From an uncultured Clostridia bacterium (GTDB taxonomy: Bacteria; Bacillota; Clostridia; Lachnospirales; Lachnospiraceae): a DNA stretch of 36,629 nucleotides. A program made the translations under genes and the position numbers. The DNA is taken from assembly GCA_948472945.1 (NCBI GenBank), contig CAOKVX010000022.1, forward strand, positions 1-36,629, given 5' to 3'. How positions within the stretch are numbered: position 1 is the stretch's first letter; each line of letters starts with the position of its first letter. Below, piece after piece: positions 87 through 27,829 of this stretch. The notes beneath the pieces were generated by a model. It saw only the letters and a list, made by a program, of their open reading frames with translations, searched no databases and was not told the origin of the DNA.

Positions 87-914
87 ATGGGAATGGGAAT
101 CGGTTTTAACTCCGCGGACAAGAGGCGTATCCAGATAAAGGACTCTTACGGGAGGGTAACAGGGACAATCACAATATCTAACAGTAAATCAAAAAAAACT
201 AAAAAATTAAAATACAACTCAAAACAGATATCTTCCCAGCTTTTGAAGACAAAAACGTCATTTGCCGCGGCACGCGTTGCAAAGCTTGCTAAAATAAAGG
301 TCAACATGCTCAAGCAGAAGATTGGAACAGGAGAGTATGACAACGATGAGCTCAGACATGCGATAGTTCATGCGGAGAGAATAGAGCGCGTTGCAAAAAA
401 GAGGAGACGGCATCTTCAGGAGGAAGAAAAAATCAAAAAAAATGTCGAGAACGCCGAGACTGAGGAGATTCTTGAGGATGATTCCGACGATGTGTATTAC
501 GATTATTTGCTTGAAGATTTGAGTGAACTTAAGGGAGAGGATTTGCAGAAACGCATACAGGAATATGAGGAGATGCTTGCCGACATTATGCGCGAACTTG
601 AAGAATCGATGGAGTTTGAGGAGATGGGCGAGCTCTCAGATTTGAGCATAATACCCGATGTCTGCGACGAGTACTACTATGATAAGATAAAGAAAAAACA
701 CCGTGCGGATGAACTTAAAGATATAATGGAGGCTGACTTAAAGTACCTTAAAGCCATGTTTGAAAAATACAGCAGGGAAATGCAGGATGCTAAAAATGTA
801 ACAGTAAATGGCGGCGTCTCAATGAGTCTTGGAGGCGTTGAAATGCCTATATCCACATCGGAACAGCCGCAGTCTGTTTCAGAAATAGGCGGATATATTG
901 ACCAATTTACATGA
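87..914 (+). CDS. unknown charged, coiled-coil protein (275 aa)
   Basis: I do not recognise this family. The start at 87 is chosen because GGAGGTG at 74-80 lies 6 nt ahead of it; the in-frame ATG at 72 overlaps that site. The N-terminus has a glycine/methionine-rich beginning, then a basic segment (about residues 30-75). Residues 75-180 are strongly charged, basic then rich in Glu/Asp, and look like long helices or coiled coil. A tyrosine cluster (EYYYDK) and a second helical stretch follow near residues 195-230. No signal peptide or membrane segment is visible, so it is probably cytoplasmic. It stands alone, with 235 bp before the next gene and no obvious terminator. Confidence 0.75.
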   Translation: MGMGIGFNSADKRRIQIKDSYGRVTGTITISNSKSKKTKKLKYNSKQISSQLLKTKTSFAAARVAKLAKIKVNMLKQKIGTGEYDNDELRHAIVHAERIERVAKKRRRHLQEEEKIKKNVENAETEEILEDDSDDVYYDYLLEDLSELKGEDLQKRIQEYEEMLADIMRELEESMEFEEMGELSDLSIIPDVCDEYYYDKIKKKHRADELKDIMEADLKYLKAMFEKYSREMQDAKNVTVNGGVSMSLGGVEMPISTSEQPQSVSEIGGYIDQFT

Positions 915-1149
915 TATATCTTCGACTTACTTTTAACCGTCCATATATCGTAAATAAGTTGCAAATTAACGACTGATAAGTTATCATATTAACATTAGCA
1001 TAGATTGAAGATGACATTGAAACTTGAAATAAACATTGACTAACGTGTATTGATATCTATGCGGTATTGACGCTGATATTAAAATTTTGCACATTATGTC
1101 AAAGTGTGATTTCATCGGCTGAAAATAATTTATCGTAAGGGGAAAATGT

Positions 1150-2727
1150 ATGGTTAATAGAAATATAATTAAAAAGTGCGCTATAATTTCAGTTATTTCC
1201 GCCGCACTGTTATTGACAGGGTGCGAAAAGCAGAGTAAAGATGACGGAAATGATAAAAGCACATCGAGTGAAATTGATGATAAAAATACAACGGAGCCTG
1301 AAAAACAGCTTTCTCAAACACCTGAAACTTCTGAAGCGCCTGACGACGCCGTTGCCGGCGCTGTGCAGATAGATATAGACAGTGGAAGTGAATTTCAGGA
1401 AATAAGAGGATTTGGGGCAGGATTTACATATTACAGCGATTATGTGTATTGGGCAAAATATAAAGATGAGGTTTACGACCTTTTATTTAAGGATGCAAAC
1501 CTAACAATGCTCAGATTCAAGAACGCGTACAAATATAATGAGGAAAAAGACTACGACACCAAGGTTGAGCGTGAGTTTTACGAAAAGGCAAAGGAGCGCC
1601 TTGCCGACGAGGGACTTAAACCTGAAGTTCTTTTAAGTTCATGGACTCCGGCGCAGTATCTTAAAACAAGCGAGTCTTTATATGGAGAGGGAACTCTCAT
1701 AAAGGATAATGACGGCAATTATGAGTACGGGAAGCTTGGCGAGTACTGGGCTGAGCTTGTCGATTATTACTACGACAACGGAGTTCCGATTGATTATATA
1801 AGTATTCAGAATGAACCGGACTACGTGGCAGCATATGAGAGCTGCACGTTTGCGTTTAATGAAAGACCGGATGCGGCTTCTTATCCAAAGTCATTTTTAG
1901 CAGTTTATGATGCGACGAGAAATTGCAAGAAGCCTCCAAAGATGGTAGGACCTGAGACAATGTCATGCGACAGCGGAGATATTTCTCTGATGGTAAATGA
2001 TATAATAAAAGAGAAGCCTGAGAGTCTTTTTGGAATTGCTCATCATTTGTATGTAGGCGGCGATGAGAACAGTGCTAAATCATTTAACACTAATCTGAGA
2101 AGCCTTGGTACGGATTACCCTGACATTGAGAAATGGATGACGGAATATTACCGCGGTAACTTTATGTTCACGGTACAGATTATTCAGAACAGTCTTACTA
2201 TTGAAAACCTCAATTCATACATATACTGGGGCGGAGTGTGGAAAGGTCCTGTCGGAAAGGACATGGAGAACATGATAGGCATGGACGCCGGATCTACCGA
2301 GGAGGATTGGGACCATGAACATGGTTATGTAATAGGAGAAAAATATTACTCAATGAGACATTTTTCGGAGTATATCCTGCCGGGGTATAAAAGAATCGGT
2401 TCAGCCGTGGACTTAAAGACGGTAAACAGCGCGGGAAGCTCAAAGCCTGACACTGACGAAGTTTCGTGTTCGGCATATGTTTCACCTGAAAAAGACAGGA
2501 TGGTGCTTGTGGCTGTAAACGACCTTGACAGCCCGCAAAAGTACCAGTTTAATATGGGAGGCTATAAAGTCAGCAACAGCAGGGTAATTCTCACAAATTA
2601 CGAAAACGGTGAGAATACCGAAACATTTTATCAGGATGCCGGAAGCCTTGACGAGGAAGGCTGCTATGAGATGCCTGCGCACAGCGTTGTGACTATTGTA
2701 ATTGACGGCAGCGCCGGCGCAAACTAA
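1150..2727 (+). CDS. secreted GH30-family glycoside hydrolase lipoprotein
   Basis: The N-terminus is a lipoprotein signal (basic start, hydrophobic stretch, lipobox LLTGC with Cys25), followed by a Ser/Asp/Glu-rich linker to about residue 70. The rest matches glycoside hydrolase family 30: a GFGAGF strand near the start of the barrel, IQNEPDY with the likely acid/base Glu222, and WMTEYYR with the likely nucleophile Glu332, then a C-terminal beta domain. GH30 enzymes cleave beta-linked glycans such as xylan, glucuronoxylan or beta-1,6-glucan; the exact substrate cannot be read here. It would be anchored outside the membrane. AAGGGG lies about 7 nt before the ATG. It is monocistronic, which suits substrate-specific expression. 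Confidence 0.88.
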   Translation: MVNRNIIKKCAIISVISAALLLTGCEKQSKDDGNDKSTSSEIDDKNTTEPEKQLSQTPETSEAPDDAVAGAVQIDIDSGSEFQEIRGFGAGFTYYSDYVYWAKYKDEVYDLLFKDANLTMLRFKNAYKYNEEKDYDTKVEREFYEKAKERLADEGLKPEVLLSSWTPAQYLKTSESLYGEGTLIKDNDGNYEYGKLGEYWAELVDYYYDNGVPIDYISIQNEPDYVAAYESCTFAFNERPDAASYPKSFLAVYDATRNCKKPPKMVGPETMSCDSGDISLMVNDIIKEKPESLFGIAHHLYVGGDENSAKSFNTNLRSLGTDYPDIEKWMTEYYRGNFMFTVQIIQNSLTIENLNSYIYWGGVWKGPVGKDMENMIGMDAGSTEEDWDHEHGYVIGEKYYSMRHFSEYILPGYKRIGSAVDLKTVNSAGSSKPDTDEVSCSAYVSPEKDRMVLVAVNDLDSPQKYQFNMGGYKVSNSRVILTNYENGENTETFYQDAGSLDEEGCYEMPAHSVVTIVIDGSAGAN

Positions 2728-2969: not shown

Positions 2970-2982
2970 GATTCCTAAAATT

Positions 2983-3249
2983 TTATTCTTCTATAACATG
3001 AACCTCAAGAAAGTCAAAATCAATTGAATCAATAAAATTATCGCTGTAGAACCGCGTTTTGTCTATTCGCTTAAACTCATCAATATTGTTTTCCAGCCAC
3101 ATTGGAACTGAAAGGTCAAAATGCTTACAGATATCTTCAAGTCCGTTAAAGACCATTTTTGTTCTATTTAGCGAATAGTTGTCACATTCGTATACATAAT
3201 CTTGAATCATCCGATTATCTTTAAATGTTTTTCCCCATAATCTAAACAT
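2983..3249 (-). CDS. small conserved unknown protein (88 aa)
   Basis: The start at 3249 is fixed by AGGAGG a few bases upstream; an ORF start further upstream (3282) lies ahead of that site and would be ignored. The protein begins MFRLWGK and reads as a soluble alpha/beta protein: a basic N-terminal strand, a central helix with KMVFNGLEDIC, a WLENN segment, FKRIDKTRF, and an acidic C-terminus (DFDFLEVHVIEE). Short proteins with this layout occur widely in Firmicutes without a known function, as far as I recall. A consensus promoter lies at 3283-3311. The neighbouring hairpin element at 2867-2969 is probably where transcription ends. Confidence 0.8.
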   Translation of the reverse strand: MFRLWGKTFKDNRMIQDYVYECDNYSLNRTKMVFNGLEDICKHFDLSVPMWLENNIDEFKRIDKTRFYSDNFIDSIDFDFLEVHVIEE

Positions 3250-25528: not shown

Positions 25529-25589
25529 TTAGGTTTGCTGCGGTGATAAATATAATGCATAAAAAATATTATGAATGGAAGTGTATATT

Positions 25590-26882
25590 ATGAAGATCGT
25601 TAATTTGGATGAACAGGTAAAAAAGACTATTCTCGGAGAGTTGTCTGGGAGGAGTCATACTGGCGGCGACGATGAATATTCGAAAGTTGTCAATGAGATA
25701 CTCGATGGCGTCAGGACGCGCGGGGATGACGCCGTGTTTGACTACACCAGACGCTTTGACGGGGCTGACATCAATGCAGATAATTTTATAGTGACTAAAG
25801 AGGAGATTGACGAGGCTTACAGGCTTGCGGGAGATGATTTTGCCGGATTAATAAAGGATTCCATACATAATATAAAAGATTTCCATTCAAGACAGGTGAG
25901 GCAGACATTTATAAATGACACAACGGACGGAATTATTGTAGGACAGAGAATTATTCCTCTTGAGACTGTCGGTCTGTATGTTCCCGGAGGCAAGGCGGCA
26001 TACCCGTCGTCAGTGCTTATGAACGCGGTTCCGGCAAAGGTTGCCGGAGTAAAATGTATTCAGATGGCGACTCCTGCCGGAAAGGACGGAAAAGTTAATC
26101 CAAACACATTAGTTGCCGCCTATGAAGCCGGGGTCGACGTGATATATAAAATGGGAGGAGCGCAGGCCATAGGCGCATTTGCTTTCGGAACCGAAACGGT
26201 GAAAAAAACCGATAAGATATGCGGCCCGGGCAATATATATGTCGCGCTCGCTAAAAAGGCCGTGTACGGGCATGTTAGCATTGATTCAATTGCCGGGCCT
26301 AGCGAGATACTCGTCCTCGCAGACGAAACAGCCAACGCAAAATTTGTAGCCGCAGACCTTCTTTCCCAAGCGGAGCACGACGAGATGGCTTCAGCGATAC
26401 TTGTGACTACAAGCGGGAAGCTTGCAGGTGAGGTATCTGAGTGGCTTGTCAAATTCACGGAAAAGCTTGAGAGAAAAGATATAATACAGAAGTCTCTCGA
26501 TAAATATTGTTACATTATTGTATGCGCAGATATGGAGCAGGCTGTCGGTATGGTGAACGATATCGCATCGGAACACTTGGAGATTATTACAAAGGACGCA
26601 TTTAACACTATGACAAAGATAAAAAATGCGGGCGCAATTTTCCTCGGAGAATACAGCAGCGAGCCTTTGGGGGATTATTTTGCGGGTCCGAACCATGTGC
26701 TTCCAACAAACGGAACAGCAAGATTCTTCTCGCCTCTCGGAATTGATGATTTTATAAAGAAAACGAATATAATATCCTACTCAAAGGATGCGCTTGAGCC
26801 GGTGTACAAAAAGATTGCCGATTTTGCAAATGCCGAGGGACTTACGGCGCATGCGAATTCCATAACCGTCAGATTTGAGTGA
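25590..26882 (+). CDS. hisD: histidinol dehydrogenase HisD
   Basis: HisD is the zinc enzyme that oxidises L-histidinol to L-histidine with two NAD+. Family motifs are VPGGKAAYPSSVLMNAVPAKVAGV, the signature around GPGNIYVALAKKAVYGHVSIDSIAGPSE, LSQAEHDEMASA with catalytic-site residues, and SEHLEI. Length 430 aa is standard. The ATG at 25590 is about 5 nt after GGAAGTG; the ATG at 25575 overlaps that region. It is separated from hisG by 123 bp and from hisB by 359 bp containing a promoter and tandem repeats. Confidence 0.96.
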   Translation: MKIVNLDEQVKKTILGELSGRSHTGGDDEYSKVVNEILDGVRTRGDDAVFDYTRRFDGADINADNFIVTKEEIDEAYRLAGDDFAGLIKDSIHNIKDFHSRQVRQTFINDTTDGIIVGQRIIPLETVGLYVPGGKAAYPSSVLMNAVPAKVAGVKCIQMATPAGKDGKVNPNTLVAAYEAGVDVIYKMGGAQAIGAFAFGTETVKKTDKICGPGNIYVALAKKAVYGHVSIDSIAGPSEILVLADETANAKFVAADLLSQAEHDEMASAILVTTSGKLAGEVSEWLVKFTEKLERKDIIQKSLDKYCYIIVCADMEQAVGMVNDIASEHLEIITKDAFNTMTKIKNAGAIFLGEYSSEPLGDYFAGPNHVLPTNGTARFFSPLGIDDFIKKTNIISYSKDALEPVYKKIADFANAEGLTAHANSITVRFE

Positions 26883-26916: not shown

Positions 26917-26944
26917 TTGCACTTTTCTTGTATTATGGTATAAT
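26917..26944 (+). promoter_or_regulatory. strong promoter before the 105-bp tandem repeats
   Basis: TTGCAC (26917-26922) and a perfect TATAAT (26939-26944) are 16 nt apart. The -10 overlaps the first bases of repeat unit 1, so a transcript would begin around 26950 and carry both units as an RNA leader toward hisB. Confidence 0.7.
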
Positions 26945-27170
26945 ATCGACAGATATTATACCAGCACCGGTTCGTGTCCGACCAAAGGGAGGACAGATTC
27001 AAAAGCGAACCGTGTGCAAGAACAGTATGTCCGGAGGACATATTATAATATCGACAGATATTATACCAGCACCGGTTCGCGTCCGACCAAAGGGAGGACA
27101 GATTCAAAAGCGAACCGTGTGCAAGAACAGTATGTCCGGAGGACATATTGTAATATCGACAGATATTATA
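26941..27170 (+). repeat. tandem 105-bp structured repeats (2 units plus 20-bp partial)
   Basis: Unit 1 is 26941-27045, unit 2 is 27046-27150 and a partial third is 27151-27170. The two full units differ at only two bases. Each begins with TAATATCGACAGATATTATA, an 8-bp hairpin with a GACA loop. It continues with CGGTTCG (26968-26974) pairing with CGAACCG (27006-27012) around an inner GTCC/GGAC stem, and ends with the perfect hairpin TATGTCC-GGA-GGACATA (27026-27042). The dense pairing suggests a structured RNA or a mobile hairpin unit. The matching open frames on both strands lack ribosome binding sites and exist because 105 is a multiple of three. Confidence 0.85.
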
Positions 27171-27179
27171 TTAAATAGG

Positions 27180-27210
27180 AAGTCAAATACCCCTAAGAAA
27201 GTGCTTGGGG
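27180..27210 (+). repeat. partial dispersed repeat (copy 3) in the hisB leader
   Basis: AAGTCAAATACCCC (27180-27193) is the exact complement of the 14-base core GGGGTATTTGACTT seen at 5382 and 16464. CCCCTAAG (27190-27197) can pair with CTTGGGG (27204-27210). The same CCCCT could instead pair with the AGGGG of the hisB ribosome binding site. The AAGCGTC hairpin part is absent here. Confidence 0.6.
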
Positions 27211-27241
27211 AATTGCCTAATTTAAGATGAGGGGATTTTTT

Positions 27242-27829
27242 ATGGAAAGACGTGCAGAAGTTACACGTAAGACAAAAGAGACCGATATTAAGGCCTCCAT
27301 TCTTATAGATGGAAACGGTGAATATAATATAAATACAGGCATAGGTTTTTTCGACCACATGCTAAGCGGCTTTGCAAGGCATGGTTTTTTTGATATTGAG
27401 CTTGCCGCGTCAGGAGACCTTGAAGTTGACGGTCACCATACGGTAGAAGATACCGGAATAGTGCTCGGGCAGGCGTTTGCAGAGGCTCTCGGTGACAAGA
27501 AAAGCATAAGGCGGTTTGGGGACTGTATTCTTCCGATGGACGATGCGCTTGTTTTGGCGGCTGTTGATATTTCGGGAAGGCATTATCTGGATTTTGACCT
27601 TGAGATGAACGCCCCAATGGTCGGAGATTTTGACACAGAGCTTGTCAAAGAATTTTTTTATGCCTTTGCCGACTCTGCAAAAATAAACGTCCACATAAAA
27701 AAGATAAACGGCTCCAATGCCCACCATATAATTGAGGCGGCGTTTAAGGCTTTTGCAAGGGCGCTTGACAGTGCGGTTTCAAAGGATGGGCGCAACAAGG
27801 GCGTTCCGTCCACAAAGGGAGTTCTTTAG
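27242..27829 (+). CDS. hisB: imidazoleglycerol-phosphate dehydratase HisB
   Basis: HisB removes water from imidazole glycerol phosphate. The metal-binding motifs FFDHMLSGFARHG and DGHHTVEDTGIVLGQA are intact, as is the later NAHHIIEAAFKAFARAL. At 195 aa it is the single-domain dehydratase without the phosphatase domain of enteric HisB, so histidinol-phosphatase must be encoded elsewhere. The ATG at 27242 follows GAGGGG by 6 nt; the ATG at 27227 lies before that site. hisI begins 19 bp downstream. Confidence 0.96.
   Translation: MERRAEVTRKTKETDIKASILIDGNGEYNINTGIGFFDHMLSGFARHGFFDIELAASGDLEVDGHHTVEDTGIVLGQAFAEALGDKKSIRRFGDCILPMDDALVLAAVDISGRHYLDFDLEMNAPMVGDFDTELVKEFFYAFADSAKINVHIKKINGSNAHHIIEAAFKAFARALDSAVSKDGRNKGVPSTKGVL

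Follow-up and report, generated by a model that had tools for sequence, protein, structure and literature searches.

A hairpin-built repeat of Lachnospiraceae that mostly occupies the -10 position of promoter-like flanks in front of genes

The window analysed here, a 36,629-nt stretch of DNA from an uncultured Clostridia bacterium of the family Lachnospiraceae (assembly GCA_948472945.1, contig CAOKVX010000022.1), carries between hisD and hisB two 105-nt units of a dispersed, patchy repeat whose structure is conserved. In the genomes that we read, this element mostly occupies the -10 position of promoter-like flanks, in sense orientation and before genes, and its location in a promoter -10 box was an unexpected result. 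We read it as a mobile repeat of Lachnospiraceae, built of hairpins and non-autonomous, whose insertions go into promoter -10 boxes in a single orientation, a reading to which we assign a probability of about 0.7.

Structure and dispersal of the repeat

An earlier note on this DNA, made from the sequence alone, had described TTGCAC-16-TATAAT ahead of two 105-nt units and a 20-nt third start, and our coordinates agree with it: the two boxes are 16 nt apart, and the first 20 nt, TAATATCGACAGATATTATA, recur a third time at 27151-27170. The two-base difference that it counted between the units holds in the register from 26941 (A27045/G27150 in addition to T26975/C27080), while in the register from 26939 only the latter difference is found. 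The 20-mer had no further match in the window at up to three mismatches, and 0 in 100 shuffles. TATAAT at 26939 is the insertion junction, and the -35 is host sequence; the note had not recognised this position of the units in a -10 box. The hisB frame is open from 27227, and the ATG at 27242, preceded by GAGGGG, is the likelier start. The interval is laid out as follows:

26917..26922, + strand: -35 hexamer TTGCAC of the native hisB promoter, in the host flank (3/6 consensus bases)
26936..26963, + strand: left hairpin or palindrome, GGTATAATATC-GACA-GATATTATACC, an inverted repeat in which the -10 box pairs with the inner arm
26939..26944, + strand: -10 box TATAAT at the left junction, made an extended -10 by the preceding TGG
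26939..27043, + strand: unit 1, 105 nt (covariance model match, 132.9 bits)
26951..26952, + strand: predicted transcription start, 7-8 nt past the -10 box (from sigma-70 promoter geometry)
26964..27017, + strand: middle stem of unit 1, GCACCGGTTCG...CGAACCGTGTGC (fold and covariation)
27026..27042, + strand: right hairpin of unit 1, TATGTCC-GGA-GGACATA (fold and covariation)
27044..27148, + strand: unit 2, 105 nt (repeat comparison and model match)
27149..27170, + strand: third, partial copy of the left hairpin at the right border
27242..27829, + strand: hisB (NCBIfam HisB, Pfam IGPD)
25575..26882, + strand: hisD (histidinol dehydrogenase), the upstream neighbour (Pfam PF00815, E 2.5e-171)

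Each unit consists of a left hairpin formed by the -10 box and the inner arm, a long middle stem and a right hairpin, and the three hairpins proposed earlier are present in the fold of one unit with its right border (-57.5 kcal/mol, z = -10.0), which none of 200 shuffles equalled. Compensatory changes occurred in 16 of the 25 pairs predicted by RNAalifold on an alignment of 46 near-full-length units, hand-chosen among the units then known, and 98.6% of cells paired on the predicted structure. The covariation score was 0.245, compared with 0.111 after shuffling (0 of 500 shuffles reached 0.245), and at most five pairs showed compensatory changes when the structure was slid along the alignment. 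This strong covariation in homologues upholds the structural part of the note's suggestion of a tandem structured RNA. Unit lengths ranged from ~69 to >130 nt, mainly through the middle stem. No covariance model of Rfam 15 matched the unit at its gathering threshold, and up to E 5 the single match was mcrA (11.1 bits, gathering 57.6, E 2.4), which is at chance level.

A comparison of G-T with A-C cells, which bears on the strand of the structure, gave mixed results. Alignments fitted with the covariance model, which lean toward the model, yielded ratios of 96:14 in the middle stem, 29:6 in the right hairpin and 7:3 in the left one; an independent MAFFT alignment (76 of 110 rows) yielded 53:11, 14:14 and 7:2, with 25 of the 53 middle-stem G-T cells coming from one pair; and left hairpins parsed directly yielded 19:11. 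Given these differences among alignments, we claim no strand. Both strands of the window carry open frames across the units, namely a 100-codon frame on the + strand (26928-27230), which reads as a repeated peptide, and a 121-codon frame on the - strand. Among 77 units of 100-135 nt, a frame was open throughout in 63 on the + strand and 61 on the - strand, compared with 31 (sd 4) in dinucleotide shuffles, and because both strands are equally open, this looks like an effect of stem composition and not of coding. In some relatives the middle stem contains an ATG together with a ribosome-binding motif; the coding control gave no sign of coding.

The window's own genome (G000) holds three full units and one relict. 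Its third unit is single, diverged (78%) and located before a DUF4317 gene, and the relict is a left hairpin with a shortened core (L009, about 2980-3007, minus strand). By DNA similarity, copies were found in 4 of the 98 genomes searched, its own included, among them G008 of the same genus. A covariance model built from 15 units had matches at E 0.001 in 54 of 397 family genomes, a count that takes in sister lineages with other end hairpins; copies per genome in this search are lower bounds, at most nine candidates per genome having been scored. At the level of the class, 3 of 391 genomes matched at E 1e-6, its own among the three, and a pattern scan of named genome contigs returned 56 stretches, in Lachnospiraceae, Clostridia or Clostridium assemblies. 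One genome had 83 forward and 87 reverse matches to the left-hairpin pattern with two mismatches allowed, which are largely the same sites because the pattern is nearly palindromic, and the same pattern read backward had 0 matches in each of eight genomes. Among the pattern matches of G220, the middle two bases of the GNNA loop vary between loci and tend to be alike within a tandem array, as if set at the founding of each array. Distant blastn found no match in plasmid and phage collections. Two pattern matches came from viral contigs: a copy of the element at the end of a contig (71.2 bits) and a match for which the covariance model gave no hit. This patchy occurrence at many unrelated loci, in arrays of one to three units, bears out the mobile hairpin unit amplified in place that the note had considered; as it had also reasoned, so many unrelated locations speak for a dispersed repeat and against a regulator of hisB.

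Occupation of -10 boxes in front of genes

For the analysis of flanks, model searches gave 200 units in 169 arrays, of which 151 were left after removal of duplicate upstream 30 nt, and 131 after exclusion of 12 with short flanks and of arrays that contained N, had a foreign left end, scored weakly, lacked a TATAAT-like box or had flanks nearly identical to others. These 131 are not all independent, since G000 and G008 share the hisB copy. The match to TTGACA upstream of the element peaked at 17 nt from TATAAT (mean 2.67), with 1.83 and 1.89 at the neighbouring spacings; the next-highest value was 2.25 at spacing 3, overlapping a conserved ATGG. Taking the best of spacings 16-18, the mean was 3.31, compared with 2.55 (sd 0.08, maximum 2.77) in 500 base shuffles, an excess of about 10 standard deviations. 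The five bases before the box were T (71%), A (82%), T (93%), G (96%) and G (84%), the extended -10 motif that goes by the name TRTGn. At least four -35 matches were present in 47 of the 131 element flanks, compared with 43 of 329 other TATAAT[ACG]T sites at the same loci.

A gene start on the same strand, with a ribosome-binding motif, followed within 300 nt in 99 of the 116 arrays that had at least 500 nt on both sides (median distance 72 nt), compared with 35 in the mirrored upstream control. By their best-matching names, with some scores below curated cut-offs because the queries were at most 330 residues long, the downstream genes were hisB, lepA, guaA, pgi, pncB and those for a CoA-dehydratase activase, a ParA-like ATPase, a sugar ABC ATPase, galK, DUF4317 and an alpha-amylase-type enzyme, and one was unmatched at 1e-10. 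With the repeat in the promoter core, transcription of the downstream genes probably passes through it.

Comparison within the genus is most informative at hisB, which is present in all ten genomes, the window's own included, and lacks the element in eight. The paired hisB-hisI regulator envisaged in the earlier note is not supported, given this absence and the unrelated genes that copies precede elsewhere. All eight element-free loci carry TTGNNN-16/17-TATAAT or TATACT, 25-74 nt ahead of the hisB match; a scan of 140 nt, run without a shuffled control, ranked this sequence first or joint first among promoter matches in seven loci and lower in G003. Upstream of hisB in G002, TTGCTT-16-TATAATATAC is apparently an empty target site. 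At the hisB -10 box, G000 has two units and G008 has one at the same place, behind -35 hexamers TTGCAC and TTGCGG, respectively, each with 16-nt spacing and 3/6 matches to TTGACA. The insertion therefore either predates the split of these two genomes or happened twice, and the number of units would seem to have changed after it. At galK, G008 has a truncated copy (L031), and the galK leader of G000 (L196, about 1380-1470, reverse strand) contains a decayed-looking element between two TATAAT boxes; neither copy was recognised by eye in the eight other genomes. The DUF4317 copy was seen in G000 only, and no element was seen by eye at the DUF4317 gene in the other genus genomes. Upstream DNA at both galK and DUF4317 is too divergent between genomes for a clean junction.

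A TATAATAT-like sequence is usually present at both ends of the element; the right end (..CATGGTATAATAT) repeats the left one (TATAATATC..) in direct and not inverted orientation, with one hairpin per end. In L025 and L027, pairing of the inner arm does not extend to the host bases just before TATAATAT, and what follows the right-hand TATAATAT is unlike what follows the left one, which places the border there at TATAATAT itself; L025 also lies within a reading frame that is continuous for 97 codons once the element and one TATAATAT are removed. Single copies can repeat an unusual box at both ends, as with CATAAT (L026), TAAAAT (L059) and TACAAT (L045). The left hairpin has a stem of at least 11 positions, mismatches allowed, in 127 of the 131 first units, and 13 left hairpins have a 14-position stem extending past the box. 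The inner arm is complementary to the -10 box and varies with it (ATC/GAT, GTC/GAC, CTC/GAG and GA/TC before the box). Between inner arm and right-hand copy, 91.8% of cells pair, with compensatory changes at four of nine pairs; the most variable pair has nine U-G and nine unpaired cells. Truncation on the right with an intact promoter side is common, in searches that required the left side. At L256 1428, L221, L222, L223 and L225, left hairpins with little or no core lie directly before a gene, and the one in L256 precedes what reads like a tRNA.

Relatives with other ends and similar systems

The same core (GCGCCGG..CCGTGYGCATCC..GCGGAG) is found in G150, G382, G351 and G374 between other hairpins, CAAGACTCG/CGAGTCTTG and TTAACTCAGTCGGAG/CTCCGACTGAGTTAA, as sharply bounded sister elements of ~130 and ~190 nt. 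Sister-element matches of any length number 26 to 45 per genome, to be read as at least these numbers in three of the four genomes, where scoring stopped at 40 candidates; copies in G150, G382 and their kin include L190 (1489-1681), L189, L184 and L311-L315. Two genomes of another family (f45) have a few core copies, with still other ends (CAAATTCG..CGAATTTG) and no TATAAT. A core that is shared under different ends points to a wider mobile superfamily in which the promoter box marks the window's lineage.

Several observations on these relatives stand by themselves. By eye, the sister elements of L311 and L312 lie just past terminator-like hairpins, not in promoters, and the right part of the 190-nt form also stands alone in G351. 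About 0.8 kb from the copy in L190 is a HEARO RNA (RF02033, 151 bits; 464-678, minus strand). Core relatives outside the family (L259, L262, L260, L263 and L265, in G548 and G758) have AAATTCG or AAGTGCGC hairpins, and in at least three of them the adjoining gene, by eye, seems oppositely oriented.

Among the loci scanned for longer copies with a transposase gene inside, none was recognised with the strict border pattern used, which left many whole copies among 94 without a near right end. At the galK copy of L095, a motif resembling the right end lies 1.5 kb further on and looked like a chance match. In L307 (G382; 641-1379, reverse strand), left-end and right-end fragments of the sister element lie 632 nt apart, and the 143-codon frame between them, on the other strand, has a sub-threshold DUF2207_C match and no transposase match; this frame is cargo or coincidence.

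In its workings the repeat is comparable to known small interspersed repeats (BOX, Correia, REP). BOX elements of Streptococcus pneumoniae, in the excerpted account compared here by description and not by sequence, are small interspersed repeats that would form hairpins if transcribed and are thought to be parasitic; like the present element they are short, hairpin-built, near genes and variable in a tandem part (PMC3049150). Insertion at -10 boxes is not mentioned in that excerpt, whereas our element is positioned in the -10 box in sense orientation and has an arm complementary to that box. Correia elements and other miniature inverted-repeat transposable elements (MITEs), as excerpted, are likewise small, multi-copy and structured, often lie just 5' of genes and may supply promoters, but MITEs have terminal inverted repeats where this element has one hairpin per end (PMC10969869). 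The repeat is short, multi-copy and dispersed as MITEs are, lacks their terminal inverted repeats and, unlike the Correia elements and MITEs so described, has its -35 in the host flank. The literature searched, mostly excerpts from open-access journals, contained no description of a repeat occupying -10 boxes.

Elements of the IS200/IS605 type (PATE, REP/RAYT) have subterminal hairpin ends and an orientation-specific target beside one end. The present element resembles them in having hairpin ends and not inverted repeats, but its pairing arm is 8-11 nt, compared with a short guide in those elements, and Y1 transposase does not track the repeat. Group IIC introns are also mobile and aimed at a transcription signal, the terminator; here the signal is a promoter, the units are ~70-135 nt and no Rfam family matched, in searches that did not extend to reverse transcriptase.

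Insertion, alternative explanations and implications

If the element inserts at -10 boxes, it would have landed in the native hisB promoter in an ancestor of this genome and G008. Insertion at TATAATAT would have rebuilt the -10 box on the element's left, so that transcription from the host -35 would run through the element; hisB would gain a structured leader of ~290 nt, although transcription may start at the right-hand TATAAT copy as well. The unit would then have doubled in place by way of the border shared between units, the end of one being the beginning of the next. Since the transcript would start past the left arm, the inner arm would pair with the right-hand TATAATAT copy and close the unit into a multi-branched RNA. 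Folded from the predicted start without the left arm, the RNA of one unit closes on the right-hand copy (-41.3 kcal/mol, z -7.6), as do the L025 and L041 copies (z -5.6 and -3.7, respectively); the lowest-energy fold of the two-unit transcript is instead a larger nested structure. The likeliest route of mobilisation would be a trans-acting enzyme that reads the hairpins as single-stranded DNA and prefers TATAATAT, perhaps where it is open at an active promoter.

A more specific version, which we consider rather unlikely, is that the element homes to open promoters: its inner arm GATATTATACC would pair with the non-template strand where this is exposed at the -10 box, insertion would rebuild the box on the left, and the same arm would then pair with the element's right end, as RNA or as an excised single strand. 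The argument for it is that arm, target box and right-hand copy mostly change together, as a guide and its target would (TATAAT/CATAAT/TAAAAT/TACAAT and ATC/GTC/CTC), with L176 as the exception.

Several points weigh against insertion at -10 boxes as we propose it. The hisB -35 agrees with TTGACA at three of six positions, and a consensus scan with a threshold of 4/6 therefore omitted this promoter; its output was a pair of weaker + strand sites within the units (AGGACA-18-TATTAT) and a single - strand site, a total of three compared with 1.3 (sd 1.1) in shuffles. The top promoter match in the G008 leader is the right-hand box (CTGCCA-16-TATAAT, 10/12), so the start of the message may be at the element's far end, and together with the weak internal sites of the window this makes starts within or at the end of the element possible. 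When the comparison is restricted to other TGnTATAAT[ACG]T sites at the same loci, 8 of 36 have at least four -35 matches, a smaller margin, and the -35 enrichment may partly be survival of harmless insertions. The diverged L003 copy folds from its predicted start no better than shuffles (z -0.75). At the junctions, the boxes at the two ends of L176 differ, and the two TATAATNT sequences that bound many copies may be one from the target and one brought by the element; an end that the element brings along and that resembles the target is indistinguishable from a target duplication. A search for homologues of the 97-codon frame apparently split in L025 gave one weak 27-residue match in 397 genomes, which is uninformative. 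Because related lineages have their left hairpin wholly inside the element, the -10 box may travel with it. Finally, the mobilising gene was not found, and Y1 transposase (PF01797), tried as a helper, was present in 5 of 10 carriers and in 3 of 8 repeat-free genus genomes and absent from the window's genome.

The alternative that survives best, possible although clearly less probable than targeted insertion, takes up this last structural point: the element would bring its own extended -10 in its terminal hairpin and insert more or less anywhere between genes, and since survival in front of genes would require the -10 to fall 17 nt from a -35 already present, the promoter pattern would reflect selection and not targeting. 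It is favoured by the different, wholly internal left hairpins of the relatives (CAAGACTCG..CGAGTCTTG and CAAATTCG..CGAATTTG) and by the bases before the box, which in most copies form pairs with the inner arm, as part of the element would. However, the element-free hisB sites are already promoter-like, one of them with TATAATAT (in the scan without shuffled control noted above), random insertion would seldom meet the -10 register, and the unpaired host bases of L025 and L027 put the border at TATAATAT.

That the unit serves hisB and other genes as a conserved cis-regulatory leader RNA, comparable to a riboswitch or attenuator and spread by ordinary duplication, we consider improbable. Strong covariation, the leader position, the closed RNA fold and the excess of G-T over A-C in the middle stem (53:11 with MAFFT, with the one-pair contribution of 25 of 53) are all as such an RNA would have them. 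The downstream genes, however, have no common function, the orthologous genes in most genomes of the genus lack the element, many copies are truncated at the right, and the right hairpin has no strand preference (14:14). A local tandem duplication at hisB without wider meaning, to which the near-identical units and the single unit of G008 at the same place might point, can be given almost no credence in view of homologues at many unrelated loci in dozens of genomes, and it explains no more than how one unit became two.

Bacteria commonly carry small interspersed repeats, and a family that inserts at -10 boxes in sense orientation would rewire many housekeeping genes while leaving them unbroken, the genes that carry it acquiring the same structured sequence in or beside their leaders. 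This raises the question of whether a melted promoter can be recognised as an insertion target. If our reading is true, occupying the -10 box would be a means by which a parasite does its host no harm and is, at the same time, nearly certain of being transcribed.
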